From: Akkermansia muciniphila | GTDB taxonomy: Bacteria > Verrucomicrobiota > Verrucomicrobiia > Limisphaerales > SXTU01 | Assembly (NCBI GenBank): GCA_945874145.1 | Contig: CAMCFN010000012.1 | Coordinates: 1 to 64,000, forward strand | DNA: 64,000 nucleotides | Direction: 5' to 3' | In this document: one piece after another, positions 36,610 through 54,730 of the stretch | Layout of the letters: each line of letters starts with the position of its first letter | Position numbering within the stretch: position 1 is the stretch's first letter | Position numbers and translations under genes: made by a program | Notes under the pieces: generated by a model | Database searches by the model: none | The model's input: only the letters and a program-made list of their open reading frames with translations | Told to the model about the DNA's origin: nothing

Positions 36610-36858
36610 ACGAGAGAGCGGGCTGTTTCGCAATCGTCAGCCGCTATCGGCGATAGCTGCGGTGCCAATCAAGTTCTTCCCGCTTTCAACCCCACTTGTG
36701 CCTACGGTCTTTCCCGCATCGCCGACTTCGGAAAATGTTTTAGTGTTTGACCCATCCAGACGCATCCGATACCAACGCGGCGCAAAGTCCGCCGTTTTTC
36801 ACCCTGATTGCCGGGGTTTGCCCGCGATGGGGAATGAGAACGTGAAAATTTGAGGGCG
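36610..36858. other. 249-base leader of the pilM operon
   Basis: No gene is present. It holds GCTATC-GGC-GATAGC (36643-36657), a small hairpin that could end the decarboxylase transcript. A TTGACC at 36747 lies upstream of a weak GATACC, 15 bases apart; this is below what I would call a promoter. The promoter of the pilus-like operon should be here. Confidence 0.4.
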
Positions 36859-38757
36859 ATGTTAAAGTCTAAGTCATTTCTCTGCATTGATTTCGGTGCC
36901 GCGACGATAAAGGTCGCGGAGTTCGAGCCTAATGAGACCGGCTCGCTCCGGCTCAGGAACTACGCGCTGCGCAGCATGGGGCAGGCAGGCTTGGTGGAGG
37001 AGAACCGTGAACTGGTGGTGCTCGAGTGCCTGAAGGAGATTCTCACGGCGGGCGTGCAGGGGCCGTTCGAGGCGCGCCGAATCAATGTTTGCGCGCCTGG
37101 TTTCCAAGTTTTCTCCAAGTTTGTAAAGCTGCCTGCCACCGACCCCGGCAAGGTTTCCCAAATCATCCAATACGAGGCGCAGCAGAATGTGCCATTCCCC
37201 TTGGAAGAGGTCATCTGGGACTACCAAATTCTCGGGAGCGCCCCCAGCGGCGAGTTGGAAGTCCTATTGGTCGCCATCAAAAACGACGTCGTTGAAAGCC
37301 TTTTCCGGGTGGGCGAGCAGGCGAATTTGAACCTGCATCTGGTGGACGTGTCCTCGGCTGCCCTGTGCAATGCCTATCGCTTCAACTACGGTGACGCCGA
37401 GGGCTGCGTCATGCTGCTCGACATTGGTGCCCGGAGCAGCAACCTGCTCTTTTTTGAATCTGGCCGGGTGTATTCCCGCTCCATCAACATCGGGGCAAAC
37501 TCCATCACGCTGGACTTTGCCAATGAGGTGAAGATGAAGTGGGATGAAGCCGAAAAGATGAAGATCGAGGAGGGCTTTGTCAGCTTGGGCGGTGCCTACG
37601 AGGAGCCCAGCAATCCCCAGCAGGCACTCATCTCGAAGATCGCGCGGCAGGTCATGACCCGCCTGCACATCCAGATGAACCAGACGATCCAGTTTTATCG
37701 TGGTCAGCAGGGGGGATCGGTTCCGACGAAACTGTATTTGGCCGGCGGGGCTTCGCTGCTGCCCTACACGGCTCAGTTCTTTGCGGAAAAACTCAACCTT
37801 CCGGTTGATTACTTCAATCCGTTCCGCAACATCCAGATTGATCCGGCGGTCAATCTAGAGGAAATGGCGCGGGTGGCCCACCAGTTCGGCGAAGTGGTCG
37901 GCTTGGGCATCCGCAATCTGGCCGAGTGCCCGGTGGAGCTCAACTTGATGCCCGCCAGCCATCTGAAGCAGCAGCAACTAGGGGCGAAGGCGATTTACTT
38001 TGTGGCATCCGTGCTGTGCCTGCTCGGGACGTTGCTGGCCTTTGGGTGGTTCTTTGGCTGGATGACCACCAAGAAAGCGGCAGCGATGGCGGAAACCCGG
38101 GCCAAGATCGAGCCGCTCAAGCAAAATAAAATCAAACTGGAGGCTGCCATTGCTGAAAATGTGGCTACTACGAATCTGGTCGTGCAGTTTCAGGACATCA
38201 TCACCGATCGCTCTACCTGGCCTGATTTGATCGCTGGCATTCAAGCCATCCTGGTTGCGGCCCAGACCAACCATGGGATCAAGCCTGAGGTGGCCACGGG
38301 CACCGAAGGCAGCACCAACACCGTGAACGACGTGGTGGCAGCGGTGTGGATAGAAAAAATGGAGCCTGGAACCGCTGTGGCCCAAAGCTCATCGACTGGA
38401 GCTGGTCGCCGGCCCCCTGCCGGCGGAATGGATGCAGCTGGAGGCATGGCTCCGCCCGGCATGGCTCCGCCCGGCATGGCTCCGCCCGGTTTTCCTGGCG
38501 GCTTGCCGGGGCAACCAGTCGCGGTTGGCCCTAAGGAAATTGGGTTTCTCAGCCTGAACTGCCGGGCCTTGAATCTTGTGCGTTACACCGCCAATGCCAA
38601 CAACGTGTTCGTGAACAATCTGCATACGAACTTCACGGCCGCCACCAATCTCTTTGAACCTGCGGGCACCGCGCTTGCCGCCGCGATTGAAGACACGACC
38701 AATCACACCTTCGGGTTCAGTATCGTGCTCCAACTGAAGAAGCCGATACGGTTCTAA
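36859..38757 (+). CDS. PilM-like actin-fold protein fused to a PilN-like region (Amuc_1101-like)
   Basis: The 632-residue protein starts at ATG 36859 (MLKSKSFLCIDFGAATIKVAEF). The first ~365 residues are a PilM/FtsA-like ATPase: phosphate loops DFGAATIKVAE and LLDIGARSSNLLFF, and LYLAGGASLLP. Then come one membrane helix (residues ~377-400), a coiled-coil-like Lys/Glu stretch and a periplasmic domain (DRSTWPDLIAGIQAIL), as in PilN. A PilM-sized protein is ~350 residues, so this is PilM plus PilN in one chain. Three perfect 15-base repeats code GMAPP x3 near residue 530. It is first in an operon with the Amuc_1100-, Amuc_1099- and secretin-like genes. Confidence 0.87.
   Translation: MLKSKSFLCIDFGAATIKVAEFEPNETGSLRLRNYALRSMGQAGLVEENRELVVLECLKEILTAGVQGPFEARRINVCAPGFQVFSKFVKLPATDPGKVSQIIQYEAQQNVPFPLEEVIWDYQILGSAPSGELEVLLVAIKNDVVESLFRVGEQANLNLHLVDVSSAALCNAYRFNYGDAEGCVMLLDIGARSSNLLFFESGRVYSRSINIGANSITLDFANEVKMKWDEAEKMKIEEGFVSLGGAYEEPSNPQQALISKIARQVMTRLHIQMNQTIQFYRGQQGGSVPTKLYLAGGASLLPYTAQFFAEKLNLPVDYFNPFRNIQIDPAVNLEEMARVAHQFGEVVGLGIRNLAECPVELNLMPASHLKQQQLGAKAIYFVASVLCLLGTLLAFGWFFGWMTTKKAAAMAETRAKIEPLKQNKIKLEAAIAENVATTNLVVQFQDIITDRSTWPDLIAGIQAILVAAQTNHGIKPEVATGTEGSTNTVNDVVAAVWIEKMEPGTAVAQSSSTGAGRRPPAGGMDAAGGMAPPGMAPPGMAPPGFPGGLPGQPVAVGPKEIGFLSLNCRALNLVRYTANANNVFVNNLHTNFTAATNLFEPAGTALAAAIEDTTNHTFGFSIVLQLKKPIRF
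38443..38487 (+). repeat. Perfect tandem repeat 3 x 15 bp in the pilM-like gene
   Basis: GGCATGGCTCCGCCC is repeated three times without a mismatch, coding for GMAPP units in the periplasmic part. In-frame copy-number changes would alter the linker length, so this site may vary among strains. Confidence 0.85.
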
Positions 38758-38769
38758 CCCGGCGCACCT

Positions 38770-39831
38770 ATGCTTTGGATTAAACGCAATCTAGTGCTGG
38801 TGATCGGAATCGTGGTCTCCGTGGGCCTCCTGAGTGGGGCCGGTTACTACCTCTACGATAATTTTTTTGACAACGACGATCAGGAGGTTCAGCTCGCTCA
38901 GTTAAAAGGGGAAATCGATCAGCTCAAGACCGGGATTTATCCGAGCGACGAAAATATCAGCATGGTGAAGAGCAACACCGTTTTGGCTGAGGCCTTCATG
39001 GCGGACACGAGCCGCCTGCTGGCGGCGGAGCCATATAAGCCAATTGCAGCGGTTACCCTGCACAACCAGCTCCCCACCATCATTGATCGCCTCCGCCGGG
39101 ATGCCACCAATGCCGGCATTGAGCTGCCCCCCAACTATCAGTTCACCTTTGGCGAGATCAAGCGCCAGGCCAGCATTTTTCCCTATCAAGTCGAGCCTTT
39201 GGTCAATCAGTTATCCGAGATCGGGGCGATTTGTGGAGTGATATTTAATGCCAAGGTTCGGGCGCTGGATGGTCTGCAACGCGTCAGCGCCTACAATGGT
39301 GACCCCGGCGGTCCTGATCTGCTAACTGATTTGGGGCAGCGCACCAACGCTTTGGCCACGAACGCAACCATTCTCATGACGCCTTATCGGATTGTCTTCC
39401 GGGCGTTTTCTAGCGAGCTGTCCGCAGTGTTGAACGGCTTTTCAAGCGCGAAGGAGTTTATGGTGGTCCGGCAAGTTGACGTGGATTCAGGGGCCGCCGG
39501 ACCCGCCATGCCTCCGGGGGGCATGGCGGGTCCGGAGTCTATGATGAATCCCTTTGGCACTCCAGGTGCCGCACCGATGCGTCTGCCCGGAGCCCCTGCT
39601 CCTGGGGCACCGCCCGCCCCCGGAGCTTCACCGATGGGTGCGCCGATTGCTGGTGCAGGAGCGCCTCGCCCTGGGTTTCCTGCTCGTCCTGGCATGGCCG
39701 CAACGACTCCCCCGTCAAAATCAACTCTTGTTCCACTACTTGATGAAAAGCCGTTGCGCGTGACGCTGGTGCTGGATGTGATTAAAGTGGTTCGACGTGC
39801 GCCGTCCTCGGGCGGTGTGCCGACCAAGTGA
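38770..39831 (+). CDS. Amuc_1100-like pilus-associated protein (PilO-like)
   Basis: The 353-residue protein has one N-terminal membrane helix (LVLVIGIVVSVGLLSGAGYYLY), a coiled-coil-like segment (EVQLAQLKGEIDQLKTGIYPSDENISMVKSN cut to short motifs) and an alpha/beta periplasmic part (IIDRLRRDATNAGIELPPNYQFTFGEIKR). The order PilM-this-next-secretin and the helix, coil and ferredoxin-like build match Akkermansia Amuc_1100, a PilO-like protein known for signalling to host TLR2. A Pro/Gly/Ala/Met-rich tail (~240-330) is extra. It contains a perfect 16-bp hairpin in its gene. It is 12 bases after the PilM-like gene. Confidence 0.8.
   Translation: MLWIKRNLVLVIGIVVSVGLLSGAGYYLYDNFFDNDDQEVQLAQLKGEIDQLKTGIYPSDENISMVKSNTVLAEAFMADTSRLLAAEPYKPIAAVTLHNQLPTIIDRLRRDATNAGIELPPNYQFTFGEIKRQASIFPYQVEPLVNQLSEIGAICGVIFNAKVRALDGLQRVSAYNGDPGGPDLLTDLGQRTNALATNATILMTPYRIVFRAFSSELSAVLNGFSSAKEFMVVRQVDVDSGAAGPAMPPGGMAGPESMMNPFGTPGAAPMRLPGAPAPGAPPAPGASPMGAPIAGAGAPRPGFPARPGMAATTPPSKSTLVPLLDEKPLRVTLVLDVIKVVRRAPSSGGVPTK
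39497..39535 (+). repeat. Strong intragenic hairpin, 16-bp perfect stem
   Basis: CCGGACCCGCCATGCC (39497-39512) pairs exactly with GGCATGGCGGGTCCGG (39520-39535) around a TCCGGGG loop, in the linker part of the Amuc_1100-like gene. There is no U-tract. It could slow ribosomes or mark an RNA processing site between the upstream and downstream parts of the operon. It may also be an inserted palindrome. Confidence 0.75.
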
Positions 39832-39835
39832 CCTC

Positions 39836-40702
39836 ATGGAATTCCTTAAGAATCACTACGAGAAGATCGCCCTGAGCGTGGTCCTGCTGCTCATGGCCAC
39901 TGCTGCCGTGCTGTTGGTGTTCCAAGTGGGCTCCGTGGAGCAGGATCTGGGTGCGTTCCGGAACTTGGTCGTGGAAACTGGGGGGCAGCCCGTCGAAAAA
40001 CCCAATCCGCTGCGCTACACCGCCATCCTCAGCAATGCCCAACCGCCCGCCGTTAATCTCGGGAAAGCACACAAAGTTTTTAATCCCGAGCGCTGGTTGG
40101 TGGACACCAATGGCACCCTCATCAGTGGCAAAGATGTGGGCGTTCCCAAGCTGCAGGTGGTGGAGATTATGCCCATGCAGCTAAAGCTCGAACTCGTTGT
40201 CAGCGGCAGCGCCGAGCGGCAAAGCTATCTAGTCAACATTACCCGGGAGTATGCCGTGAAGACGCTGGATCAGCGGCCCACCAAACGGAGCATCAGTTTG
40301 AATTCCACCAACTTCTTGGACACTCCGAGCAAGCTTCGGTTTATCGTTGCACGGGCCATTGATGGCCCGCCGGACAATCCCACCGTGGTCTTGGACTATC
40401 AGGAGCCGGGCAAGGAACTACAGAAAATCAGTTTGACCAAGGAAAAGCCCTTTAGCGCAGTGGTAGAGTATGGCGCGAAGTTGTTCTATCCGGTGGAAAA
40501 GATCGCCTTCCCCACTCCGAATCCGTTACGTAAAGAGCTGGTTTGGGAGCGCAAAGACTCGCCCTTGATCTTCGCCGGGGACACGAACATTGTCGTTGAA
40601 ATCACGGCCAGCAACGTGGTAGTCAAGGCCGTCTCAAATGATAAGACCACCACGATTCCATTGTCGGGTGCCCCGCCCGCTCCGGGTTCCCCCAAACCAT
40701 GA
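39836..40702 (+). CDS. Amuc_1099-like pilus-system protein
   Basis: The 288-residue protein starts at ATG 39836 (MEFLKNHYEKIALSVVLLLMATAAVLLVFQ), an N-in membrane anchor. It then has a soluble periplasmic domain of ~250 residues, mostly beta-like, with PAVNLGKAHKVFNPERWLVDTNG and repeated VVxxxS strands. No classical pilus family is recognised. The call rests on order (third of four, directly before the secretin) and on N-anchor build, matching Amuc_1099 of Akkermansia. It could be a PilP-like link between inner-membrane proteins and the secretin. It is 4 bases after the Amuc_1100-like gene. Confidence 0.7.
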   Translation: MEFLKNHYEKIALSVVLLLMATAAVLLVFQVGSVEQDLGAFRNLVVETGGQPVEKPNPLRYTAILSNAQPPAVNLGKAHKVFNPERWLVDTNGTLISGKDVGVPKLQVVEIMPMQLKLELVVSGSAERQSYLVNITREYAVKTLDQRPTKRSISLNSTNFLDTPSKLRFIVARAIDGPPDNPTVVLDYQEPGKELQKISLTKEKPFSAVVEYGAKLFYPVEKIAFPTPNPLRKELVWERKDSPLIFAGDTNIVVEITASNVVVKAVSNDKTTTIPLSGAPPAPGSPKP

Positions 40703-40739: not shown

Positions 40740-43523
40740 ATGAAGAACAGTATTCTCGTAGGCGCCTTGGTGTGTCTGACTGCGATGTCGGGTTGGTCTG
40801 CCCCGGCTGCGATTGATCCAGTGGCCATTGCTGAGGAGGAAGCATTGCGCCGTCAGGAGCGCAAATTGGTGATGGAAGAGAACCTTCAGCGGGCCAAGCG
40901 TTTGCAAAAGGAGAAAGACTACGCCAACGCCGCCAAGCTTTACGAGGAGGCAGTAGGCCACGCCAAGTTGCTGGGCGGGGTGGCTGCCGTGACCCAGCCG
41001 TATCAGGAAGCGATTGCGGGATTGACCTACTGCCGCATCCAGATAGCTGTGGGGTTGCAGGAAAAATACGAATTCAAGCAGGCGGCGGCCGAGGTGGAAA
41101 AGATTTTCCCGTTCGACCCTCAGAGCACCGATGCGGACAAGTTCAAGCGGTTCAACGAACGGGTTGAGTTTGCGCACAAAGGTCGGCTGCCCAGCCAGCA
41201 GGCCGTAACCCGCAAGCCGGAGCTGATGGAAGAGCGAGCCGCTACCATGCGTCTAGTGCGGGATGGGCAGGTTTATTACGAACTGCGTGAGTATGGCGAG
41301 GCGAAGAAGCGACTTGAAGAAGCCCTTGAAAAGGATCCTATCAATGACGCGGCCTACTACTATCTCCGGCTCATCATGGAAGCTGAATTTGAGGAGGAAG
41401 CCCGGAAGCGTGAACGCACTTATGGTTCCCGCGTGGTAGAGGTCAGCAAGAAGTGGAACGAGCGCACCCGCAAGGACTTGCCTATTCCCAATCCCTACTA
41501 CAAGACGAACTCGGAGGTGCCGGGTCTCACCCATTCCAGCAAAGGAGCGCAATACATCAATCGCAAGCTGGACGAGATTCGGATTCCCGAAGTGGTCTTT
41601 GAGGGGTTGCCGCTGAAGGACGTCGTAGACAAGTTGATTGCCGACGTCAAAAAATATGACCCGGACAAGAAGGGCCTCAATTTCCTCATCAACAATATCG
41701 CCTTCGACTTCATCTCGGCCAATGCCACCGGGCCAGGTGGCGGTGCCGCGCCGGCCGCGCCTGCGGCACCCTTGCTTGACCCCATGGGCAATCCCATAGC
41801 GCCGGCGGGCGGCGCGGGAACCTCCAAGCCTGACATCCTCACCGCATTGATCAACATACCCAACATCTTGTCTGACCTAAGTTTGCGTGAGACGTTGGAT
41901 GTGATTTGTAAAACAGCGGACGTCAAGATGCCCGATGGTCGCACTGCTGGGTTGAAGTTTTCCGTCGAAGAATATGCCATCACTTTCACCCCCAAGCTTC
42001 CCGAGCAGGCCATGCTTTTCTCGCGCATCTTCCGGGTGAATCCTGACACTTTTGTGCAGGGGTTGCAGAGCGTGGTGTCCCAGCCCATCCAATCAGTGAC
42101 TTCAAGCGCTGGTGGTCAGGGTGGTCAAGGCGGTCAACAAGGCGGTCAACAAGGCGGTCAACAAGGCGGCCAACAGGGTGGCCAGCAAGGCGGTGGCGGT
42201 GCTGGTTTTTCGATTGCCGGCGTGTCTGTAGCGGGTGGTGGTCAGGGCGGCGGCGGAGGCGGCGGCGCGGGCGGTGGCGGTTTGGCGGGTGTCACCTCCA
42301 CCAATCTGACCTCGGCCATTAACTCGCAAGTTCGTTCCTACTTTTCCGCTGCGGGCGTCTCCAACTTGGGGGTGACGAACGGGCCGGATGCCACGCAGGT
42401 GTTCTTCAACGACCGCAATGGTTTGTTGCTGGTCCGGGCTTCGCTTCAGGATTTGGATATCATTCAGCAGGCCATCGAGTTGCTCAATGTGGTTCCTCCA
42501 CAGGTGCTGGTTGAGTCCCGGTTTGCGGAAATCAACCAGAACGATAGCAAGGCTTTGGGTTTCGATTGGTTTTGGGGCAACACCTTGGCCAATCCTCTGA
42601 ACATACAGGGTGGCACGGCGCCCTCTTATCAAGGGGTTCCCTCTCGGGCCAATCCGCTCGGAACCTTCCCTTCCCCTGCATCCCCCATACCGGCTTTGGC
42701 TTCCGATGGCAATTTGACCAGCGGCGTGCTCTCGCGCAACAACGCCCCTGCCTTGATGACGCTTTCGGGCATTCTGACCGATCCTCAATTCCGCGTGGTC
42801 ATCCGGGCACTGGAGCAGCGGGATGGCACGGACGTGTTGTCTGCTCCCAAGGTCATCACCGTCAGCGGGCGGCAGGCGCAGATTCAGGTGACCGACATTC
42901 GGACTATCATCACCGGCATTACTGTCGGGCAGAACACTGCTGGTGCTGGCGGCGGCGGTGCTGCTGGTGGTGGTGCTGCCGGCGGCGGCGCGATTGGTTC
43001 AACTATCACTCCGATTGTTCAGGCTCTGCCCACCGGCCCTGTGTTGGACGTGCTGCCGACGGTCGCAGCCGACGGTTACACCATCAACATGGCGCTAATT
43101 CCCTCGATCACCCAGTTCATCGGCTACGATGCGGTGCCTCCCGAGTTCGCTGGTGCCATTCAGGCGCAGTCAGTCGGCTCTGGCACCGTTGGTGTGTCTC
43201 TGACCGCAACCGTTCCGCTCCCGCGCACGCGAGTGCGTCAAGTGGTCACCCAATGCGTGGTTTGGGACGCCCAGACGGTCATGCTTGGCGGGCTGATTTC
43301 GGAGGATATCATCAACATCAAAGATCGTGTGCCAGTCTTGGGCGATTTGCCTTTGGTGGGCCGGCTCTTCCGCAGCGAGCAGAAGACCAACCAGAAAAAG
43401 AACCTCGTCATCTTCGTCACTCCCACCATCATCGACCCTGCGGGAAATCGGGTGCATACGGATGAGGAGATGCCCTTTATTTTGGCGAATACTCCCCCCC
43501 AGCCGGCGGTTGTGCGTCCTTAG
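40740..43523 (+). CDS. Secretin of the pilus/type II family with N-terminal TPR-like region (Amuc_1098-like)
   Basis: The 927-residue outer-membrane channel protein has a signal peptide (MKNSILVGALVCLTAMSGWSA). A Lys/Glu-rich helical TPR-like region (~45-240) is followed by N-domains (PEVVFEGLPLKDVVDKLI; LRETLDVICKTADVKMP), a Gly/Gln-rich linker (~458-525), and a NolW-type domain with 'VLVESRFAEIN' (~585). The secretin core ends in VPVLGDLPLVGRLF (~863-876) and KNLVIFVTPTIIDP. A secretin of this type forms the ring for pilus or substrate exit. Its size is large because of the TPR part and linkers. It is last of the four-gene pilus set. Confidence 0.92.
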   Translation: MKNSILVGALVCLTAMSGWSAPAAIDPVAIAEEEALRRQERKLVMEENLQRAKRLQKEKDYANAAKLYEEAVGHAKLLGGVAAVTQPYQEAIAGLTYCRIQIAVGLQEKYEFKQAAAEVEKIFPFDPQSTDADKFKRFNERVEFAHKGRLPSQQAVTRKPELMEERAATMRLVRDGQVYYELREYGEAKKRLEEALEKDPINDAAYYYLRLIMEAEFEEEARKRERTYGSRVVEVSKKWNERTRKDLPIPNPYYKTNSEVPGLTHSSKGAQYINRKLDEIRIPEVVFEGLPLKDVVDKLIADVKKYDPDKKGLNFLINNIAFDFISANATGPGGGAAPAAPAAPLLDPMGNPIAPAGGAGTSKPDILTALINIPNILSDLSLRETLDVICKTADVKMPDGRTAGLKFSVEEYAITFTPKLPEQAMLFSRIFRVNPDTFVQGLQSVVSQPIQSVTSSAGGQGGQGGQQGGQQGGQQGGQQGGQQGGGGAGFSIAGVSVAGGGQGGGGGGGAGGGGLAGVTSTNLTSAINSQVRSYFSAAGVSNLGVTNGPDATQVFFNDRNGLLLVRASLQDLDIIQQAIELLNVVPPQVLVESRFAEINQNDSKALGFDWFWGNTLANPLNIQGGTAPSYQGVPSRANPLGTFPSPASPIPALASDGNLTSGVLSRNNAPALMTLSGILTDPQFRVVIRALEQRDGTDVLSAPKVITVSGRQAQIQVTDIRTIITGITVGQNTAGAGGGGAAGGGAAGGGAIGSTITPIVQALPTGPVLDVLPTVAADGYTINMALIPSITQFIGYDAVPPEFAGAIQAQSVGSGTVGVSLTATVPLPRTRVRQVVTQCVVWDAQTVMLGGLISEDIINIKDRVPVLGDLPLVGRLFRSEQKTNQKKNLVIFVTPTIIDPAGNRVHTDEEMPFILANTPPQPAVVRP
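42111..42195 (+). repeat. Tandem 12-bp repeats coding GGQQ units in the secretin gene
   Basis: CAAGGCGGTCAA-type units recur about seven times, some perfect and some with synonymous changes, coding a Gly/Gln linker. A Gly-rich, Gln-free stretch follows (GGGQGGGGGG). Length variation is likely. Confidence 0.8.
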
Positions 43524-43543: not shown

Positions 43544-44479
43544 GTGCCGACTGACTCCAATTCTGGGCGCTTGTCCGCCTTGCAGCTCCCTGCCGGAGAT
43601 CGGTTGCTGGTCGTGGACGGTCATGCCTATGCCTACCGTGCATTCCATGCGATCCGGCAGCTTAACTCACCCGATGGCGCTCCGACCAACGCCATCTATG
43701 GGTTCATCAAGATGTTGGGTAAGCTGCGGTTGCTCACAGCGCCATCCCACCTGCTGGTGATCTGGGATGGCGGTCTTTCGGCGGAACGAACCAAGGCTCA
43801 CGCCAGTTACAAAGCGCAGCGCCCGCCGATGCCGGAGGGTTTGGCGCAGCAATTTGATGAGATTATCGAGTATTTACGCGCGGCGGGTATCGCCTCGTGG
43901 TGTCAGGACGGTGCAGAGGCGGACGATCGAATCGCTGCTGTGGCGCGACAGGCGGTGGCCGGCGGTGCGAGCGTGATCATCGCCAGCTCGGACAAAGATT
44001 TCATGCAATTGGTCAACTCCCGGATTGGGCTGATCAACCCCAATGACCGTATCGAGCGTATCTGGACAGACGCCGAGGTGGTGGCAAAGGCCGGAGTTCG
44101 TCCGGATCAAATCGTGGATTGGCTCAGCTTGATCGGCGACAGCGTGGACAATATCCCCGGGGTGCGAGGAATCGGGCCCAAGACGGCAACTGAATTGCTG
44201 GTGCAGTTTGGGACCATCGAAGTGCTTTTCCAGCGGCTGGAGGAAGTGAGCTCCGACCGGCTGCGAGCCAGCCTGGCTGGTGCCCGAGATGACCTGCGTC
44301 GGAATCAGGAACTCATCCGACTTCGGGAGGAGGTCGGCGGCGAGTTTGCGCTGGCGGACGCCCGGCTAGGCGACGAGGACCAAGTTAAACTGACGGAGTT
44401 GTTTCGGCGCTGGGGGTTTCGTTCGATGCAGAGCGAATTGGCCGCCCGTCAGGAATCCATGCAAGGCCAGCTTTTATGA
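43544..44479 (+). CDS. Stand-alone 5'-3' exonuclease (DNA polymerase I N-domain-like)
   Basis: The 311-residue protein starts at GTG 43544. It has the flap-endonuclease N-domain: LLVVDGHAYAYRAFHA (metal Asp), WDGGLSAERTKAHASYKAQRPPMP, GAEADDRIAAVA and IIASSDKDFMQLV. The H3TH motif is DWLSLIGDSVDNIPGVRGIGPKTATELL (~195-225). There is no polymerase part, so it is the free-standing 5'-3' exonuclease/flap-endonuclease. It would remove RNA primers or flaps. It lies 20 bases after the secretin stop and likely shares its transcript, with no functional link apparent. Confidence 0.9.
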   Translation: MPTDSNSGRLSALQLPAGDRLLVVDGHAYAYRAFHAIRQLNSPDGAPTNAIYGFIKMLGKLRLLTAPSHLLVIWDGGLSAERTKAHASYKAQRPPMPEGLAQQFDEIIEYLRAAGIASWCQDGAEADDRIAAVARQAVAGGASVIIASSDKDFMQLVNSRIGLINPNDRIERIWTDAEVVAKAGVRPDQIVDWLSLIGDSVDNIPGVRGIGPKTATELLVQFGTIEVLFQRLEEVSSDRLRASLAGARDDLRRNQELIRLREEVGGEFALADARLGDEDQVKLTELFRRWGFRSMQSELAARQESMQGQLL

Positions 44480-44610: not shown

Positions 44611-46512
44611 ATGCCGTCCTTTTTTAGAGCACTCGCAAGCTTGCTTGCTCTGCTCCCCGTCTTCGCCGGGAGCACGGACGCGTTTGCGCAGTCGGATTAC
44701 ACCCGGCAGGCCGGGGAATATGCCTTGTCGGGTGCGTTACCGGGCGACCAAACCCGCCCTGCGCTCGCCTTTGGTCCAACTGGTGGCTACGTGGTCTGGC
44801 AGGACAATGTAACGGACGGGGATGGCAGTGGCATCAGCGCGCAGCGGCTTAATGATAATCTTTCTGGCACGCTTGCCCCGTTCAGGGTCAACCAAGTGGC
44901 GGCGGGCTATCAGGAGTTTCCGCAGGTCGCCGTGCTTCCCAACGGAGGGGCGGTTTTTGTCTGGCAGGGCGGCACGCTGGGTTTCCAAAAGGTCTTCGCG
45001 CGCTTCATGAATGCGTATGGGACCTTTGCGACCGATGATATTTTGGTCGGTGCGGACACGAATCAGCCCAGCCTACATCCGGCCGTGGCGGTGCTGACGA
45101 GCGGGGACGTGGTTGTGGTCTGGAGCCGCATGGAAGGGGATGGTCATCTACAGGGTATTTGTGCGCGCCGCTTGTCTTCCGCTGGTGCGTTGTTGGGGCC
45201 GGAATGGGTGGTGAATCAGTCCACCACTTACAATCAGAGCAAGCCGGCCATCGCTGCCTTGGCCGGGGGCGGCTTTGCGGTGGCGTGGGTGTCAGAGTCG
45301 GTCAGGGGCAGTGATCCGCTGGTGACCGAAGGCGGAAGTGACGCGATTGCGGTGGATGTTTTGGCCCGTCGTTATGATGCTGTTGCCCAACCTGTGGCTG
45401 GTGAATTCAAGGTGAACACCCAGACGCACCTCTGCAATCATCCAGCCGTGGCCCCGACAGCGGCCGGTGGATTTACCGTGGTCTGGGAACAGCGCGATGC
45501 GATGGTGCGGACCAACGGGCTGGACGTGCTAGCGCGAACTTACGATAGCAACGGGGCACCGGTCGCCGCACCGGTGCTGGTGAATGCAACCGTATATGGA
45601 GATCAATACGCACCTCGCGTGGCGGTTCATGCCGAGACGCATCTGGTGGTGTGGACCAGCTTGGGGCAAGACGGCTCGTATGAGGGGGTGTATGGCCGGG
45701 CGCTGACGGCTTCAGGCTCGCCGACTGGAAGTGAATTCCTCGTGAACACCACTACTTTGAACCGGCAGGATCATCCGGTGGTGGCGGCCGACAGCAACGG
45801 ACGTCTGTTGGTGGTTTGGTCAAGCTTCGCCGGGGTTGCTGCTGGGGTTGACCTTTATGCCCAGCGTTATGCATCCGCACAACCGGTGCCCACCCCCGCC
45901 GCACCACGGGTGAATGCCCTCAACCACTCGAGGTTGGTAATTTCCTGGGCGGAACTGGCGGGTTACGACCTCCAGCATTATGCGGTTTATGTGGATGCCA
46001 ATCCGGTTCCTTTGGTGGTCACCGAACAGATGGTGGTGATTACCAATTTGCTGGCCGGCAGCGAACATAGCGTTCGCATGGAATATGTGTTGCGGGATGG
46101 CCGGCGTTCCGCGCTCTCTGCGGCCGCAGTCGGAACCACTTGGGGGGATGATTTTAACTTCGATGGCTTGCCCGACGATTGGCAGGCCCGCTTTTGGGGG
46201 GCAAACCCAGTTCGGTGGCCAGCGGGCAATGTGGACAGTGATGGTGACGGTGCGAGTAATTTGCAGGAGTTTCTAGCCGGGACGGACCCGATGAACCAAG
46301 GCAGCGCGCTCCGTTTGGGCATGACGCGCAACGGGCAAGGCCTGTGGCTTAACTGGAACACGGAGCCGGGGTTGGTATACCAGGTGCAGGTCTCAACCAA
46401 TGCCTTCGACTGGCAGGCCTTGGGCAAGTCTCGATTTGCTCCCGGTGCCACGGATGCGCTGGCCGTTGGTGGCAGCGATGTGCGTCTGTATCGAATCATT
46501 CGAATGAGATGA
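44611..46512 (+). CDS. Exported repeat protein, propeller-like repeats plus FN3, Ca-loop and C-terminal YQVQVSTN module
   Basis: The 633-residue protein has a signal peptide (LASLLALLPVFAGSTDAFA). About seven repeats each contain a V-V-W-type strand (VVWQD, FVWQG, VVWSR, VAWVS, VVWEQ, VVWTS, VVWSS) over residues ~45-420, which suggests a seven-bladed propeller-like fold. A fibronectin-like domain follows (~430-515), then a Ca-binding loop DSDGDGASNLQEFLAGTDP. The C-terminal module reads WLNWNTEPGLVYQVQVSTN...LYRII and is shared with two downstream proteins. It is the first of four exported proteins; the next gene overlaps by ATGA. Function is unknown; secreted sensor or adhesin is possible. 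Confidence 0.75.
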   Translation: MPSFFRALASLLALLPVFAGSTDAFAQSDYTRQAGEYALSGALPGDQTRPALAFGPTGGYVVWQDNVTDGDGSGISAQRLNDNLSGTLAPFRVNQVAAGYQEFPQVAVLPNGGAVFVWQGGTLGFQKVFARFMNAYGTFATDDILVGADTNQPSLHPAVAVLTSGDVVVVWSRMEGDGHLQGICARRLSSAGALLGPEWVVNQSTTYNQSKPAIAALAGGGFAVAWVSESVRGSDPLVTEGGSDAIAVDVLARRYDAVAQPVAGEFKVNTQTHLCNHPAVAPTAAGGFTVVWEQRDAMVRTNGLDVLARTYDSNGAPVAAPVLVNATVYGDQYAPRVAVHAETHLVVWTSLGQDGSYEGVYGRALTASGSPTGSEFLVNTTTLNRQDHPVVAADSNGRLLVVWSSFAGVAAGVDLYAQRYASAQPVPTPAAPRVNALNHSRLVISWAELAGYDLQHYAVYVDANPVPLVVTEQMVVITNLLAGSEHSVRMEYVLRDGRRSALSAAAVGTTWGDDFNFDGLPDDWQARFWGANPVRWPAGNVDSDGDGASNLQEFLAGTDPMNQGSALRLGMTRNGQGLWLNWNTEPGLVYQVQVSTNAFDWQALGKSRFAPGATDALAVGGSDVRLYRIIRMR

Positions 46513-47957
46513 ACCCGACCATGCGATATCTCTTCACAACGCTGCTGGGGCTGGTCGTGCTGCTGGGCCTCGTTTCCTCAGGCCGGGCTTTTTCGCTGAT
46601 GGGGCCGCCCGCTACTTGGCAGACTTCCGCGATTGGATACAACCTTACGGCTGATGTGGGCGCTCCCATGAATCTAAGCGAGGAGTATCGCATCACGATG
46701 CCAACTCTGAATTACGGCTTTGATGCGACCTTTCTGAACTTCTTCGGGTCGAATGGAGTGGCGGCTGTGCAGGCGGCCATGACCATCCTGAACAACATCC
46801 CTGATGTCCGAACGATGAGCTACACATTGACCGAATTTCCACTGCAAGGGGTGGGGCCGGCCAACAGCACTGCGGCCAATCTGCAAATCCGGGATTTGAA
46901 GTCGGCCACGCTTTCCACTGTGCTGGGCCAGATGGGGTTAGCCAGCCCGGAACGTTGGGTGTTCTCTCTCCGGGACCGCATCGTGGTGGGGAATGTGACA
47001 AACTACATCGTCATTCAGCGCAATTTCGATCCTGTGAATTGGAATCCCACCAACACTGTCAATGGGGTGCTTTACACCTACACCGTTCGTGACCCGGTGC
47101 CCAACCAGCTTACTACTTACTCGGATGCGGTCGAGTCACCGGCGGATGGCCGAACCGTGAACCCGTTCTTGTCGGTGGCGGGCGTGGATGATGGCGGCGG
47201 GTTGAGAGCAGGTCAGTTCTTTACCAGTCTGACCCGGGATGATTTTGGAGCGCTGCGCTATCTGCTTCGGTTCAATAACGTCAATACTGAGCAAATAACG
47301 CTTGGCACGGCCGGGATTGGCGGCAGCGGTCTTACCTTGGTGCCGTTTGAATCCCCCTACAGCTTCCCGAGTGGCACAAATACAACTAATTCGCTCGGCA
47401 CCAATACCCCTGTTGCTCTTGCACGTCGGCCAGGGATCGGAAAAGTATCGTTTCGTTCGCTTTCTATTGATTCGTTGCTGGGTATTAACATTTTGCCGGT
47501 GACGAATCGCTACACAGATGCTTACTACCATCCCACCAATTTTTATCTCACTAACCAGACCCTGCAACGGGTGTCCACTTTGCCGGACATCCTGTTTTCT
47601 GCCGGGGATATTTCCGCGGGGCAGCTTACCAACGGGGCGACGCTGTCTCGTCCTACCAGCACGCGGTGGATAAACAATGCAGCGCTCCCGGGCAATAGTT
47701 CTCTGGGAGGAACGGGAAATAATCCCGGGCCGGGGGTGATTCCTGAAGGCGATGGCACAAGCGTCGCGATTCCCATCATATTCGACACCTTGGGGCCAGC
47801 GCGCATCAATTTTCAAAGCGGCGGTGCCCGGTTTTTGGATGAGCGCAGCGCTCGACTCAACGGGGTTTGGGGATTCTTTGACACCACGACCATTTATTCC
47901 GTGTTTCCAGACGGATTGACCATTCAGGCTCTGGAACGACAACTCTACGGACCATGA
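46509..47957 (+). CDS. Exported protein of unknown function
   Basis: The 482-residue protein starts inside the previous stop (ATGA). A signal peptide runs MRYLFTTLLGLVVLLGLVSSGRAFS. The mature part is rich in Asn, Thr and Gly and has many aromatic strands (NLSEEYRITMPTLNYGFDATF, YIVIQRNFDPVNWNPTNTVNGVLYTYTV). 'GFDATFLNFFGSNGVAAVQAAMTILNNIP' looks like a helix typical of exported enzymes with a metalloprotease-like organisation, but no HExxH is present. No family is recognised. It lacks the shared YxVQxSTN tail found in its neighbours. It overlaps the next gene by ATGA as well, so the three are tightly coupled. Confidence 0.7.
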   Translation: MNPTMRYLFTTLLGLVVLLGLVSSGRAFSLMGPPATWQTSAIGYNLTADVGAPMNLSEEYRITMPTLNYGFDATFLNFFGSNGVAAVQAAMTILNNIPDVRTMSYTLTEFPLQGVGPANSTAANLQIRDLKSATLSTVLGQMGLASPERWVFSLRDRIVVGNVTNYIVIQRNFDPVNWNPTNTVNGVLYTYTVRDPVPNQLTTYSDAVESPADGRTVNPFLSVAGVDDGGGLRAGQFFTSLTRDDFGALRYLLRFNNVNTEQITLGTAGIGGSGLTLVPFESPYSFPSGTNTTNSLGTNTPVALARRPGIGKVSFRSLSIDSLLGINILPVTNRYTDAYYHPTNFYLTNQTLQRVSTLPDILFSAGDISAGQLTNGATLSRPTSTRWINNAALPGNSSLGGTGNNPGPGVIPEGDGTSVAIPIIFDTLGPARINFQSGGARFLDERSARLNGVWGFFDTTTIYSVFPDGLTIQALERQLYGP

Positions 47958-50950
47958 GGCCGGCATTCAAACAAAGGAGCGGGCGCTTGTCTGGAGACGA
48001 AAAGTGTCCGGCGATTCGAGGCCTTGGCGTTTGGCAGAAACGCCTAGCTACGTTCCTAGTCGCGCTCACGCTCGCCTTGAGTAGGGTTGGTTCGGTGCAA
48101 GGGACGGTTCTAGTCTTTACCAACTTATCAGATGTCACGAACCCGCAGATTGATGCTACCACTGTGGTAAACATCGGCACGATCAACGCCGTCAGTTCAA
48201 TTTTCGGTGGCCAGTCCCTGTTCCAGGCGATCAACAATCTAAATTTCACCAACACGATCAGCGGCAGGATGGTGGGGGATGTGGGCTTCCAACTGGAGTT
48301 TACCACAAACACCTCCCGGTTCTTTGCCAACAGCATCGTAAATCAAGGGGTCATCACGGCTCCCACCATCCTGCTCTCGGCAACTAACCTGATAAACTCC
48401 GGCGAGCTGAGGGGAGAGGATCTGCTCGAACTTAAAGGGCAGGATATTACTTTAACGCGTTCCATTTTGTCTGCTTCCGGCGCGGGTTCCTCTAGCTCTG
48501 GATTCCGTTCGGTGGATACCAACGGAGTGGTGACCTATCGAAACCCGAGTTCTGTCGTTGATCTTTATTGGGGGGCAGGGACGGGGGATGTGATGACCGC
48601 GTCCTCTGCTGGTTCACTGTTCTTGCCATCGCTTGATTCTCTAGGGTTTGGTTTTCGCCCTCCGCAAGTTTCGTCCCCTTCCCATGAGGTCCAATCCGTG
48701 CAGGCGGGGCTCGGGGCATTGACTGCTTTCCAGCGAATCACCGGAACTAACTTTCTCTCCTACGTCCGCACCAACCGGCAAGGCACCAATCTCAATATCC
48801 AAGTAGTTTTGGTGCAGACTAACCGTGCAGCTACGAATCTTTCCGTGGATGTGCGTTTTACCTCTGGCTTTGGTGCGAATGGTTTTGCTGGCAACGTTCC
48901 GTTGCTGAGATTTAGCACCTTAGGCACGGACATAACAACTGGCACATCTTACACCAACAGCCTGTTTTTCCTCGACCGGATCAACACGCTGACCAACGCG
49001 AATCTATCTGCCAACCTTCAGGGGGGATCCTCACGCCCGGCGGCGTATGAGTTGATTCGCAGCACCTTCTTGGATGCCAATTTTGTGCCGGGTGGTGGGC
49101 TCACAACCAACGAAAGCATTGCCAACATTGCCTATTATCAGAATGGATACGTGTTGGACACCGTCACCAATCACAGCTATGCGGCTTGGCAGGCAGGGGT
49201 GGGCAATGCTGCTTTGATACAACCGGGGGCCGCCAACTATCTTCCTCATTTGGATGATCCTACAAATTTCGCAGGCCGGGTAGATATTATCGCGAACAAT
49301 CTCAATCTGAACTTGGCTCGTATCAGCGCAGACAATTTGGTCAGCATCCGTGCGACGAATCTTAGCAGTAGCGCGGGGACTCTGATTGATGCCCCCTTCA
49401 TCCAGATCAACATCGCCAATACCAACACCACGCTTACGTTGACGAACTTCTCAACGACTGAGGTTGCTCGACCTAACGGGACCATGTCCTTTTATAGCAC
49501 GGTCTGGACAAACTCCGTTACCAATACGCCCATTCAGCTAAATTTACGCTATCATGTGCTCATCGTGGACGCCTCACTACTGAGCGGAATTTCGCCGGTA
49601 ACATTGCAGGAATTCTCGGCTCGTGGCACCAACGTCATCATCAATAACATCTTGAATATAGGGCGGCTCATCCAGGTGGATTCGCCGGCTGTAACCTTCA
49701 GCTCCTCAAGTTCTTTGAGCCTGCCCTTGTTGGGGGCCACCAATCTTGGCGCTGTGAATTTCCCTAATCTGACACACTTCACCAATCTGGGCACGATCAC
49801 TGTGCCATTTCAGTGTGTGTTTGGCAGCGACCGGCCCACGGCAATCACCTACTTCGCACAGCGAGGTTCAATGGTGGCTAACAGCATCAGCATCAGGGCG
49901 ACTGAATATGAAAGTTCTGGAACAAACGCCACCCGGTCTTTGGCCAGCGGAGCAGCTGCTTCTGGAGGGCCGATTTCCATCACGGCTGATTCCGCCAAAT
50001 TTGATGGCGGAGCCGTTGGCGGTTTGCTTTCGGCGGGGGGCAGCATTTTGCTGGCCGGCAATGACATCAAGCTAAGGAGTCATCAGGTGACTACTGCGGG
50101 CACGCTGATTCTCAGTCCCACCAATTCGCTCACGGATGCCGGGTTCAGCGGCACCAACCGGGTTAATTGTGCCTTGGGTTTCTACCTCACGGTCAAGCCT
50201 CGGCTTGGAGATTTGTTGGGCACCACAATTTACACTACAGCACCATTTAACCGTGACGTGCCACATGTGTGGGCTGGCACCAATCTCGGGGTAACGGTGG
50301 CGGGTTACTCCAACAACGCTGCTTTAGGCCGGCTGCTTTTGGACACGGGCACCAATCTCTTTTCGCAGAATCGGCTGGTCTTTGGCGGCGCTGGGATCAA
50401 CAACGCCCTCTACGTGGATTATTTGGAATTGGCAGGGACGCTCACAAATGAGTTGGCTTCGCACCTCCTTATAGAAAGCAACTTGACCATATATTTTGCG
50501 AACGCCAATCTTCCTGTGGAGGCTTTGGACGGGCAGTTTGATGGGCGTTTGCGTTGGGTGCGTGATTACGCCGGACTCAACACAGGCGTTGATGTTAGGC
50601 TGGCGGATGGCCAAACAGTGAAGGTAAATGTGGCCAAGCTGAGTAGTTTGGTGCTCGATTCGGACGGCGACGGAACGGTGAATGGCAGCGATCTGAGCCC
50701 TTTCGACGGTGTTGTTGTGGACAGTCAGGTGATGTTCACCAATGTTCCTCCGCTTACTGCATTTCTGCGATGGGAGGCAGCAGCGCAGACAATCTATCAG
50801 GTGGCAGTGAACACTAATTTGCTCACCAGTGGATTCAACTTTCTCGCTAACATCACCAACACCTCATCAACGAATCGAATCATCATTTTCTCGGAGGTCG
50901 TTCCCGCAGGAAGCACGGAGCGCTACTACCGTGTTTCGTATCAACCTTGA
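47954..50950 (+). CDS. Large exported beta-rich protein, adhesin-like, with C-terminal module
   Basis: The 998-residue protein has a late signal peptide (WQKRLATFLVALTLALSRVGSVQG, after ~27 hydrophilic residues). It is a beta-rich chain with many Asn/Thr-rich short strands (NLINSGELRGEDLLELKGQDITLTRS; NIILNIGRL-like repeats near 560), resembling the beta-helix of filamentous haemagglutinin-like adhesins. A Ca-loop DSDGDGTVNGSDLSPFD lies near residue 905. The C-terminal module TIYQVAVNTN...ERYYRVSYQP follows. It overlaps the gene before it by ATGA and is followed, nine bases later, by the subtilase. Role as surface filament or adhesin is inferred. Confidence 0.7.
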   Translation: MRPAFKQRSGRLSGDEKCPAIRGLGVWQKRLATFLVALTLALSRVGSVQGTVLVFTNLSDVTNPQIDATTVVNIGTINAVSSIFGGQSLFQAINNLNFTNTISGRMVGDVGFQLEFTTNTSRFFANSIVNQGVITAPTILLSATNLINSGELRGEDLLELKGQDITLTRSILSASGAGSSSSGFRSVDTNGVVTYRNPSSVVDLYWGAGTGDVMTASSAGSLFLPSLDSLGFGFRPPQVSSPSHEVQSVQAGLGALTAFQRITGTNFLSYVRTNRQGTNLNIQVVLVQTNRAATNLSVDVRFTSGFGANGFAGNVPLLRFSTLGTDITTGTSYTNSLFFLDRINTLTNANLSANLQGGSSRPAAYELIRSTFLDANFVPGGGLTTNESIANIAYYQNGYVLDTVTNHSYAAWQAGVGNAALIQPGAANYLPHLDDPTNFAGRVDIIANNLNLNLARISADNLVSIRATNLSSSAGTLIDAPFIQINIANTNTTLTLTNFSTTEVARPNGTMSFYSTVWTNSVTNTPIQLNLRYHVLIVDASLLSGISPVTLQEFSARGTNVIINNILNIGRLIQVDSPAVTFSSSSSLSLPLLGATNLGAVNFPNLTHFTNLGTITVPFQCVFGSDRPTAITYFAQRGSMVANSISIRATEYESSGTNATRSLASGAAASGGPISITADSAKFDGGAVGGLLSAGGSILLAGNDIKLRSHQVTTAGTLILSPTNSLTDAGFSGTNRVNCALGFYLTVKPRLGDLLGTTIYTTAPFNRDVPHVWAGTNLGVTVAGYSNNAALGRLLLDTGTNLFSQNRLVFGGAGINNALYVDYLELAGTLTNELASHLLIESNLTIYFANANLPVEALDGQFDGRLRWVRDYAGLNTGVDVRLADGQTVKVNVAKLSSLVLDSDGDGTVNGSDLSPFDGVVVDSQVMFTNVPPLTAFLRWEAAAQTIYQVAVNTNLLTSGFNFLANITNTSSTNRIIIFSEVVPAGSTERYYRVSYQP

Positions 50951-50959
50951 TCACGCTAA

Positions 50960-53900
50960 ATGGCAGAAATATTTAAGCATTGTGAACGGTTGGGGCAGAG
51001 CCTGTTCCAGCTAGCCCAAGGTCGGCGTTCGATCCATAGGTTTACCGTCTTGTTCATTCTCTGCGGGGTTGGGCTGCTGGGGGCTCAAGACGCTCGGGTG
51101 CCGTTTATCATGCTGGATGGCAAGCGGGTTCACCCGACGAGCGTGCTGGTCAAATACGGTCCTCGGGTCACGGCAGCCAACTTGAGAGCGACCCTTCAAA
51201 CAGCAAATTTAAGAATCATCAAGGAACTGGCTGCCCCAGCAAGGTGGGCTGTCTTGGATGCTTTGCCGCAAGCCCCTGTCGTGCCCGCAGGAGAGGAGGC
51301 CAGAGTCCTGCGCGACCAGATCGAACAGCTTCGCCTGTCGGGGCAGTTCGAGCTTGTGGAGCCAGATTTTGTCCGCCAGTTGACCTTGCTCCCGCCGGAC
51401 ACATTTTTTCAGGATGGCACGCTTTGGGGCCTGCGAAACACCGGACAATTTGGCGGGGTGATAGGCGCGGATATCAACGTCACAAACGCGTGGGATATCA
51501 CGGTTGGCAGCACGAATATCATTATCGCCGTGCTGGACTCGGGGATTCGCTATGACCATGTGGACCTTGCGAGCCAGATGTGGCGCAATCCCGGGGAGAT
51601 TCCTGGAGACGCTATAGATAATGACGGAGATGGCTATGTGGACAATGTCTTCGGCATTAATGCTCTCACAGGGTCGGGAGATCCGAACGACGATAACGGC
51701 CACGGGACACACGTTGCTGGAACAATCGGGGCCTCGGCCAACAATGGTCAGTCGCATGTTGGAGTAGTTTGGAATACGCGACTGATGGCGCTCAAGGCGG
51801 CGGATCGGTTTGGTTTTTTGACTTCGAGCGCCGTAATTACGGCGGTGGATTTCGCCATTTCGAAGGGAGTAAAAATCATCAACGCCAGCTTTGGTGGCTA
51901 CTTCTTCTCCCAAGCGGAGTTTGATGCTTTCCTGCGAGCTAGAAATGCAGGTATCTTGGTGGTCGCGGCAGCTGGCAATGATGGGGTGAACACGGACCTT
52001 CAGCCGCATTACCCATCTTCTTTCCAACTGGATAATATTATCTCGGTGGCTGCTTTAGATCGCAGAGATGGCATTGCCAGCTTCTCAAACTTTGGGCGCA
52101 CGAGCGTCCACTTGGGCGCACCTGGAGTGGAAATTAATTCCACCTACAACTCCTCTCCGACCAGCTACCAGCAATTGGACGGGACCAGCATGGCTGCACC
52201 GCATGTGGCGGGGGTGGCGGGCCTAGTCTTTTCGCTCACAACCAACATCACAGCCAGCGAGGTCCGCAACCGCATTCTTTTTACGACGACACCCGTTTCC
52301 GCATTGGCTACGAACACGATACAGAGCGGCAGAGTTAATGCGCATCGAGCTTTAACTACCGTTGATGACAACCTGCTCGAAGTTTTGGTGACGCCTGCCC
52401 CTGGCAGCACTTTGCTCGCCGGGGCCACGATCTCGTTTACCGTCGAGGTAAGTGATCTGCTGCCGGTGAACAATGCAACTGTCATCGGCTCCATCCCTGG
52501 AATCTTTACCAATCAAGTTTTTCTAAATACGGGGGTGAATCCCGACTTGGTGGCGGGGGATAATCGCCACACCTTCAGCGTCAATGTGCCGGCCATTGCA
52601 ACAAATAGCCTGCAGCTTTCCTTGAGTATCAGCGCGCCAGGCAAGACTAATTACGCGAATACCTTTACCTACAGAACTGCCCCCATACCCTCTAATGACA
52701 ATTTTCCTCCAACTGCCAAGGTGCCCGACAACGGAGGCATTATTTTGGGCGACAATACTTTTGCAACTCTTCAATCGGGGGAACCACTGCACGCCGGGGT
52801 CGCAGGGGTGGCTCGTTCCATCTGGTGGAACTGGGCACCCACCAACTCTGGCCCAGTGCTCGTGGACACGGCAGGAAGTTCGTTCGATACCGTGGTGGCA
52901 GTCTATACCAATGCGTTCCAGACCACTGCTTTGGGCAATCTCAATCTGGTGCGAGCAACCAATGATGTCGGGAATATTCTGCAAGGGTTCGTAACATTTA
53001 CAGCCGCTGCCGGAACCACCTATCGCATTGCCGTTGCCAGCGCTTCAACCAACAGTTCAGGGGAGGTTCGGCTCCGCGTTCTCTTTGGGGCCGATCCTGA
53101 TACCCAAGCCCCGATGGTTGCGATAACCAACTTGGTCAGCGGCCCCCAGTCGATTGGCAATCCTCCCAGTGGCTTGATATTGACCAACGCCCAACTAATC
53201 CTCTCCGGCACTGCGGTTGACCCCGCCACCAATGCCATTGGCGTGCGCCAAGTGCAGGTCCGTCTTAACAACGGCTTGGCGGTTTCGGCCACTGGAACCA
53301 CCAACTGGACCGCTCCGCTGTTCCTCAGTCCCGGAACCAATGTGATCCAGATTTCAGCTGCGGATTTCTCCGGTAACGTGTCCGCCCCCATCACATTCCA
53401 AGTGAACTACCGTGTCTTTGACCCGTTTAACGATGTGCTGGCTAATGCTCTTGAATTAGCCGGCAATCTTGGTGCGGTGGTAACTAACAATTTCAACGCG
53501 ACCACTGAGCCAGGCGAGCCCTTTCATGTTGGCAAGCAGGGTGGTAAATCTGTCTGGTATTTCTTCACGCCTGCCTCCGACGGCTTGCTGTTTCTTACCA
53601 CCTCCAACTCAACGTTTGACACCCTTTTGGCCGTCTACACGGGCAGTCGCGTGGATCGCCTCACCTCGGTCAGCGCTAACGACGACGCCCCTTCCCTCGG
53701 TGCCGTGCATAGCGACATCTATCAGGCGGTGCGGGCAGGCGTAAGATATTATGTGGCTGTGGACGGATTGGCGGGAGCTTCTGGACAAATTATTCTCTCC
53801 TACTCATTTACGGCGCTTCCGATTTATCAGTTGACCGTGAATTCCACCACCGGCGGCATCGCATTTCCCAATTCTGGAACGTATGTAAGTAATGCGACAG

Positions 53901-54730
53901 TGGACGTTACTGCGGTCGCGTCCAACGGGTTTAATTTTGTGACTTGGCAGGGAGATCAGTTGTCCCTCGACAATCCGTTGCGGTTATTCGTGAACAAGCC
54001 AACCACGCTCACGGCGGTCTTTGCGCCTCGTTTTCTGGCGGACGATTTTGAGACGGGGTTACTGCGCGCCAGTCGTGGCTGGGCGACGAATTCCATCACT
54101 AACTCACCCGGCGCTGCAGCTTGGTTCGTTGCGGCGGTCAACGCTCAAACCACAAATGCAAGTCAGGGCAGTCTTTTCCATGCGCGGGCAGGGGGCATCA
54201 CCCATGGGCAGACCACGGTGCTGAGGCTGGTGTCTGCCACTCGCGCGGGGAACGCATCCTTCGCCTATCGTGTCAGCAGTGAGGCGTTTGGACTGAACGG
54301 GGGAGACTTCTTTGAGTTCTACTTAAACGGTGTCCGCCAAGTGCGGACGAATGGCGAGAGTGGGTGGCAGACGCACAGCTTTAACGTGACCGCACGCACT
54401 AATGTTCTTGAGTGGCATTACATCAAGGATTCGAATAACAGTGAAAATCTGGATGCCGTATTTGTGGATAATCTGGATCTGCCAATTGTGGAGCCAGTGA
54501 ATCCTGCGGTGGTGGTTCGCTTCAGCACCAATGCGGTCCAACTGCTAAACGGAGGTTTGCAGTTGAGAATTGAAGGTCAGTCCAATCAGGTTTATCGCGT
54601 GCAGGCGTCCAGTGATCTCGCCAACTGGGTGGATGTTTCGACCAATTTTGCTCCTTACGGTTTGATTCAGTTCGCAGAGCCGCAGGCGATTACGAATTCC
54701 AGCCGCTATTATCGGGTCGTCGCACCCTGA
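50960..54730 (+). CDS. Subtilisin-like serine protease (S8) with PPC-like repeats and C-terminal module
   Basis: The 1256-residue protein has a signal/anchor (IHRFTVLFILCGVGLLGA) and an N-terminal propeptide-like region (VLVKYGPRVTAANLRATL). The S8 catalytic domain has Asp in IIIAVLDSGIRYDHVDL (~193), His in NGHGTHVAGTIG (~250) and Ser in GTSMAAPHVAGVAGL (~410). Two repeated PPC-like domains (VARSIWWNWAPT...SSFDTVVAVYTN and GKSVWYFFTPA...STFDTLLAVYTG) follow, then an InlB-type repeat (SGTYVSNATVDVTAVASNGFNFVTWQG) and the shared tail QVYRVQASSDLANW...RYYRV. It could mature its three co-encoded neighbours or act on foreign protein. Confidence 0.9.
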   Translation: MAEIFKHCERLGQSLFQLAQGRRSIHRFTVLFILCGVGLLGAQDARVPFIMLDGKRVHPTSVLVKYGPRVTAANLRATLQTANLRIIKELAAPARWAVLDALPQAPVVPAGEEARVLRDQIEQLRLSGQFELVEPDFVRQLTLLPPDTFFQDGTLWGLRNTGQFGGVIGADINVTNAWDITVGSTNIIIAVLDSGIRYDHVDLASQMWRNPGEIPGDAIDNDGDGYVDNVFGINALTGSGDPNDDNGHGTHVAGTIGASANNGQSHVGVVWNTRLMALKAADRFGFLTSSAVITAVDFAISKGVKIINASFGGYFFSQAEFDAFLRARNAGILVVAAAGNDGVNTDLQPHYPSSFQLDNIISVAALDRRDGIASFSNFGRTSVHLGAPGVEINSTYNSSPTSYQQLDGTSMAAPHVAGVAGLVFSLTTNITASEVRNRILFTTTPVSALATNTIQSGRVNAHRALTTVDDNLLEVLVTPAPGSTLLAGATISFTVEVSDLLPVNNATVIGSIPGIFTNQVFLNTGVNPDLVAGDNRHTFSVNVPAIATNSLQLSLSISAPGKTNYANTFTYRTAPIPSNDNFPPTAKVPDNGGIILGDNTFATLQSGEPLHAGVAGVARSIWWNWAPTNSGPVLVDTAGSSFDTVVAVYTNAFQTTALGNLNLVRATNDVGNILQGFVTFTAAAGTTYRIAVASASTNSSGEVRLRVLFGADPDTQAPMVAITNLVSGPQSIGNPPSGLILTNAQLILSGTAVDPATNAIGVRQVQVRLNNGLAVSATGTTNWTAPLFLSPGTNVIQISAADFSGNVSAPITFQVNYRVFDPFNDVLANALELAGNLGAVVTNNFNATTEPGEPFHVGKQGGKSVWYFFTPASDGLLFLTTSNSTFDTLLAVYTGSRVDRLTSVSANDDAPSLGAVHSDIYQAVRAGVRYYVAVDGLAGASGQIILSYSFTALPIYQLTVNSTTGGIAFPNSGTYVSNATVDVTAVASNGFNFVTWQGDQLSLDNPLRLFVNKPTTLTAVFAPRFLADDFETGLLRASRGWATNSITNSPGAAAWFVAAVNAQTTNASQGSLFHARAGGITHGQTTVLRLVSATRAGNASFAYRVSSEAFGLNGGDFFEFYLNGVRQVRTNGESGWQTHSFNVTARTNVLEWHYIKDSNNSENLDAVFVDNLDLPIVEPVNPAVVVRFSTNAVQLLNGGLQLRIEGQSNQVYRVQASSDLANWVDVSTNFAPYGLIQFAEPQAITNSSRYYRVVAP

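Follow-up and report, generated by a model that had tools for sequence, protein, structure and literature searches.

A C-terminal tail of exported proteins in Verrucomicrobiota and an order-level extension of a pilus-like secretin locus

The stretch of 64,000 nucleotides analyzed here (the window) carries, downstream of a secretin gene, four genes for exported proteins (A to D), three of which end alike. This raises the question what the shared end does and how these proteins relate to the secretin. The original prediction was a possible new sorting system, in which the shared end would be the signal, the secretin a candidate exit and the subtilase encoded by gene D a candidate processing protease. 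The reading frames of 633, 482, 998 and 1256 aa were confirmed at their predicted positions (Table 1), as was the tight spacing: the genes overlap in ATGA at 46509 and at 47954, and 9 bases lie between C and D, which starts at 50960. The ends of A, C and D match as described (YQVQVSTN...LYRIIRMR, YQVAVNTN...RYYRVSYQP and YRVQASSD...RYYRVVAP, each followed by the stop). For B, a structure was predicted with low confidence (pLDDT 46.5).

Table 1. Features of the window discussed in the text.
Feature	Coordinates	Strand	Description
PilM-like protein (Amuc_1101 family)	36850..38757	+	NF045709 5.9e-135, below cut-off; TIGR01175 over cut-off
Amuc_1100-like protein	38770..39831	+	NF038287 4.2e-13, below cut-off; same position in relatives
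Amuc_1099-like protein	39797..40702	+	weak NF042425 match, E 0.015; position conserved
Secretin, Amuc_1098-like	40740..43523	+	PF00263 6.8e-31; NF042912 8.4e-98, below cut-off
Stand-alone 5'-3' exonuclease	43544..44479	+	PF02739 7.5e-46, PF01367 1.4e-25; facultative in relatives
Gene A	44611..46512	+	exported, 633 aa; repeat body, EF-hand-like/TSP3 segment, C-terminal tail
Tail module of A	46312..46509	+	tail alignment and profile
Gene B	46509..47957	+	exported, 482 aa; no family in Pfam search, no tail; order-specific
Gene C	47954..50950	+	exported, 998 aa; no family in Pfam search; tail
Tail module of C	50723..50947	+	tail alignment and profile
Gene D	50960..54730	+	1256 aa; subtilase head, InlB-like and glucodextranase-B-like body, tail; PF00082 6.2e-52, PF18998 8e-11
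Tail module of D	54503..54727	+	tail alignment and profile; AlphaFold pLDDT 85.6
GspE-type ATPase, first T2SS gene	60826..62562	+	PF00437 2e-135, PF05157 1.7e-15; candidate alternative exit

To characterize the shared end, the tails of A, C and D were compared and used for profile searches. They form a module of about 70 residues; the alignments span 71-82 columns, and identity to the first tail is 25% for the second and 29% for the third. Among the 261 frames of the window (stop to stop, at least 100 aa, both strands) only A, C and D matched the motif. With a profile of the three tails, 13 further copies were detected in the genome of origin, a draft of 4.58 Mb that is 82% complete, and all of them reach the C-terminus. 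Chance likeness of the three tails is thereby excluded, and the repeated C-terminal module is real. With a 16-sequence profile, the number of matches in the same genome was 25 at E < 0.001, rising to 30 at E < 0.1, and a 50-sequence profile found 14-116 copies in each of 17 order-mates (17/17, E ≤ 1e-5). In the phylum, 108 of 289 Verrucomicrobiota genomes carried the tail (up to 20 candidates scored per genome), so that the expectation of a tail style common in the phylum was borne out. The sequence is highly divergent, with a mean column identity of 22%. Weak matches in two genomes (G161 and G284) were discarded as they look like ordinary FN3 cross-matches. At G000:C13:55000-66500 (L088), three tailed NHL-repeat proteins lie within 10 kb. 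Elsewhere in the window, an open reading frame on the minus strand (5144-5791) ends in ..RHDDSGNLVFSDGRVEGV..FYRAAQP and recalls H-X9-DG prepilin-type proteins.

The position of the tail within its carriers was analyzed in 80 copies (21 from the own genome, 29 from the phylum and 30 from the order). At most eight residues separate the tail from the stop in 75 of them, and about five are internal; terminal copies were used to build the profiles, which do not encode the stop, and the C-terminal bias could be somewhat overstated. Among further order copies with lower scores 19/20 were terminal, the twentieth meeting no stop in the fetched stretch; for weaker matches outside the order the count was 16/23, and several of the exceptions resemble ordinary FN3. 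FN3 domains (PF00041) of the order-mates, in contrast, were terminal in only 4 of 30 cases (Fisher p = 3e-16 against the tail), and a tail-like motif stands at the end of 6 of these 30 FN3-bearing proteins. In the own genome the tail is carried by P-domain subtilases (S8), a matrixin-like protease, a feruloyl-esterase-like hydrolase, NHL, RCC1 and galactose-oxidase-like propellers, and Ig and Calx-beta proteins. A signal peptide was recognized in most carriers with a complete start; this assignment rests on inspection, as a crude N-terminal hydrophobicity score was non-discriminating (19 of 32 other open reading frames of the window pass). The tail is thus strongly biased towards the C-terminus and occurs on diverse exported proteins, as characterizes a C-terminal sorting domain, and a C-terminal sorting role of the tail as such is possible.

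Subsequently, we aimed to understand the fold of the tail. In searches of Pfam and NCBIfam, none of 50 tails gave a match near a curated cut-off or a match to Pfam fn3 (PF00041). An AlphaFold2 model of the tail is a beta-sandwich (mean pLDDT 85.6) with five main strands, the last of which is the RYYRV motif, and a fold search of the PDB returned only weak Ig/FN3/discoidin-like matches, none at E ≤ 0.001. Weak similarity was also found to F5/8-type sandwiches. In hhalign, the tail aligned with FN3 domains from the order at a probability of 92% (E 5e-7), and since the alignment ends at strand F, the last strand of FN3 (G) has no counterpart in the tail. The evidence for this missing strand is a profile alignment together with a model built from 50 sequences, and preceding residues may fill the edge; only if they leave it unfilled may the last edge strand of the tail be exposed. 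A literature search gave no description of the tail in the parts of the publications that were accessible. The tail is a previously unmodelled family and deserves a family of its own.

The second part of the question concerns the operon and its neighborhood. The product of Amuc_1098 in Akkermansia is an outer-membrane secretin of the PilQ type (PMC4960237) and belongs to a pilus-like cluster (PMC5332112). In the window, the gene order PilM-1100-1099-secretin is present with the corresponding family matches, which lie below the equivalog cut-offs and are weak for 1099. Of 97 relatives, mostly order-mates, 80 were found to hold B; among 288 genomes sampled from other orders it was not detected, and a scan of the contig collection with B yielded two loci only. 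In 20 order-mate contexts, selected for holding B, the secretin gene is followed by A, B and C in every case (20/20), and PilM and the 1100/1099-like genes precede the secretin wherever the contig reaches, the 1100-like gene being unmatched in L137. As A-B-C stand beside the secretin in all contexts, A-B-C(-D) extends the PilM/1100/1099/secretin (type IV pilus-like) locus at the level of the order, a finding that is independent of the tail. The predicted link between secretin and operon therefore stands for the neighborhood of A-B-C; it does not extend to the tail, which is phylum-wide, whereas no B turned up beyond the order. Contrary to the prediction, the secretin gene is not directly upstream of gene A: an exonuclease gene (similar to the N-terminal region of DNA polymerase I) intervenes, as in about 12 of the 20 order-mates, A adjoining the secretin gene elsewhere. 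The products of A-B-C-D are probably surface proteins working with the pilus-like machine.

Within the operon, the tail and the fourth gene are less constant than A-B-C. Orthologues of A occur in all 20 contexts and carry the tail in 17; it is absent from A in L139, L140 and L143, and from C in at least two of these, so that the tail is not essential to the operon proteins. The genomes with a tail-less A hold 52-108 tails elsewhere. Mean identity among A orthologues is 55% in the tail and 54% in the body, and in L134 and L136 the FN3-like linker and the EF-hand of A are lost while the tail is kept. No large gene stands at the D position in L134, L144 and L145, and the reading of this position in L143 is confounded, as a wrong frame was taken for its C gene. 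Where a large D-position gene is complete and recognized, it is closed by the tail (11/11). The head is of the S8 type in the tested genus-mates and in L146 and of the M36 type (fungalysin) in L139, and no protease was recognized in the heads of L135, L141 and L142; the InlB-like body is common to all. The subtilase can hence hardly be a dedicated processing protease, since an M36 head or no protease replaces it while body and tail stay. The D position (L129, L133, L135, L139, L141, L142, L146) presents swappable heads on one body plus tail at a conserved locus. In L137, it is occupied by a tailed protein of 1863 residues that has no detectable similarity to D.

To relate tail and secretin, both were scored in the 289 genomes: 106 hold secretin and tail, 164 secretin only, 2 tail only and 17 neither. 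Tails are commoner with a secretin hit (106/270) than without one (2/19; Fisher p 0.013, uncorrected for phylogeny), and to this extent the predicted correlation was recovered; it is nearly uninformative, however, since 270 of 289 genomes pass the secretin threshold of E 1e-20, which probably catches other secretins too, and 164 of these lack the tail. Six genomes of g3, taken as Akkermansia-type from very strong NF042912 scores, have the secretin and not a single tail copy. Conversely, G258 holds 15 tails with no Amuc_1098-type match; its GspD gene adjoins GspE. The other tail-only genome, G108, has three weak tail copies and a broken gspD in its T2SS locus. There (L273, G108:C6:68000-77000), gspD contains stop codons; the genome is 1.7 Mb in size and 99% complete. 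T2SS presence was read in these two genomes and in the own genome, where a cluster of GspE, F, G, J, K, a PilM/GspL-like protein and GspD runs from 60826 past the window end (L270, G000:C12:60000-79384). In this cluster gspD is apparently split over two open reading frames, and a histidine kinase and a sulfatase follow the T2SS genes. Taken together, the tail is not specific to the neighboring secretin, and a secretin-specific sorting system is unlikely.

Among the explanations considered, we tentatively favor the one in which the tail, a C-terminal module found across the phylum, serves surface targeting or retention and A-B-C-D is a separate order-level extension of the pilus-like locus. For the tail itself, surface targeting or retention is the first choice and a structural end-cap a close second. 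The latter reading, which is well possible, takes the tail as an end-cap or a weak ligand-binding accessory domain that was spread by shuffling, has no sorting role and stands last because its final strand is a natural end. The relation to FN3 and, weakly, to F5/8-type sandwiches, the dispensability for A and C in certain lineages, the very divergent sequence and the few internal copies are all consistent with an end-cap, but plain FN3 is rarely terminal in the order, some FN3-bearing proteins themselves end in a tail-like motif, and the tail is retained when heads or neighboring domains disappear or are exchanged.

The system of the original prediction, in which the tailed proteins leave through the adjacent Amuc_1098-like secretin and have their tails trimmed by the subtilase, is quite improbable: 164 genomes, g3 among them, with the secretin but no tail, tails without an Amuc_1098-type match in G258, the near-universal secretin hit, the unconserved protease head of D and the tail-less operon proteins argue against it, whereas the invariable synteny of A-B-C and the secretin locus (20/20) and the uncorrected co-occurrence with the tail are in its favor. 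That the tail is a signal of the T9SS or exosortase type appears very improbable. It shares with such signals the terminal position on many exported proteins, and the T9SS C-terminal domain (CTD) is a C-terminal beta-sandwich as well (PMC4804311); yet none of 50 tails matched Pfam or NCBIfam models for T9SS or PEP-CTERM, and for TIGR04183/Por_Secre_tail this holds at E up to 1. A transmembrane segment with a basic end, as expected for exosortase, is absent from the tails, which are soluble beta-sandwiches ending in RFYRV and a few residues. SprA was detected in none of 58 relatives, a weak test since the controls were silent too.

Under the favored reading of surface targeting or retention, the tail may direct proteins to the cell surface or hold them there. 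The cargo would be exported by Sec and then fold, and its terminal sandwich would be recognized by an envelope component or by a further copy of the tail, plausibly by pairing with the exposed last strand (RFYRV). The tailed cargo would more likely leave through the T2SS of the genome than through the neighboring secretin. A dedicated machine or partner of the tail was not found. It is rather unlikely, though conceivable, that the tail represents a new class of signal, namely an FN3-derived C-terminal domain without the last strand that is read at the outer membrane through strand completion, phylum-wide and on up to about 100 proteins per genome. To our knowledge, it is poorly understood how Verrucomicrobiota place their large exported proteomes at the surface, and the tail as defined here, which is absent from Pfam and NCBIfam, is a handle that marks candidate surface proteins. 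The coupling of A-B-C-D to the Amuc_1098-like locus in turn suggests dedicated partners for the pilus-like machine outside the studied gut lineages.

Several known systems resemble the tail or the locus in part. With FN3 (PF00041) the tail shares the profile alignment up to strand F and a similar model fold, but it stops after this strand, ends the protein (75/80 copies against 4/30) and is missed by the Pfam fn3 model. Pilin subunits of chaperone-usher systems have an incomplete Ig fold that lacks the last strand; the likeness to the tail, an Ig-like sandwich without last strand, is an analogy only. Like the T9SS CTD (TIGR04183/Por_Secre_tail), the tail is a C-terminal beta-sandwich of about 70-90 residues on many unrelated Sec-exported proteins; it differs in the missing sequence match, in the phylum and, by the weak test above, in the lack of SprA. 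PEP-CTERM, MYXO-CTERM and GlyGly-CTERM tags are likewise paralogous C-terminal tags with dozens of copies per genome, and they consist of a short motif, a transmembrane helix and a basic tail (PMC1569441, PMC3237569, PMC11980579), while the tail described here is a folded soluble domain. The locus, finally, corresponds to the pilus-like Amuc_1098-1102 locus of Akkermansia in the four genes that match Amuc_1101, 1100, 1099 and 1098, and differs from it by the added, order-specific A-B-C-D, of which B was not found in Akkermansia-type genomes.
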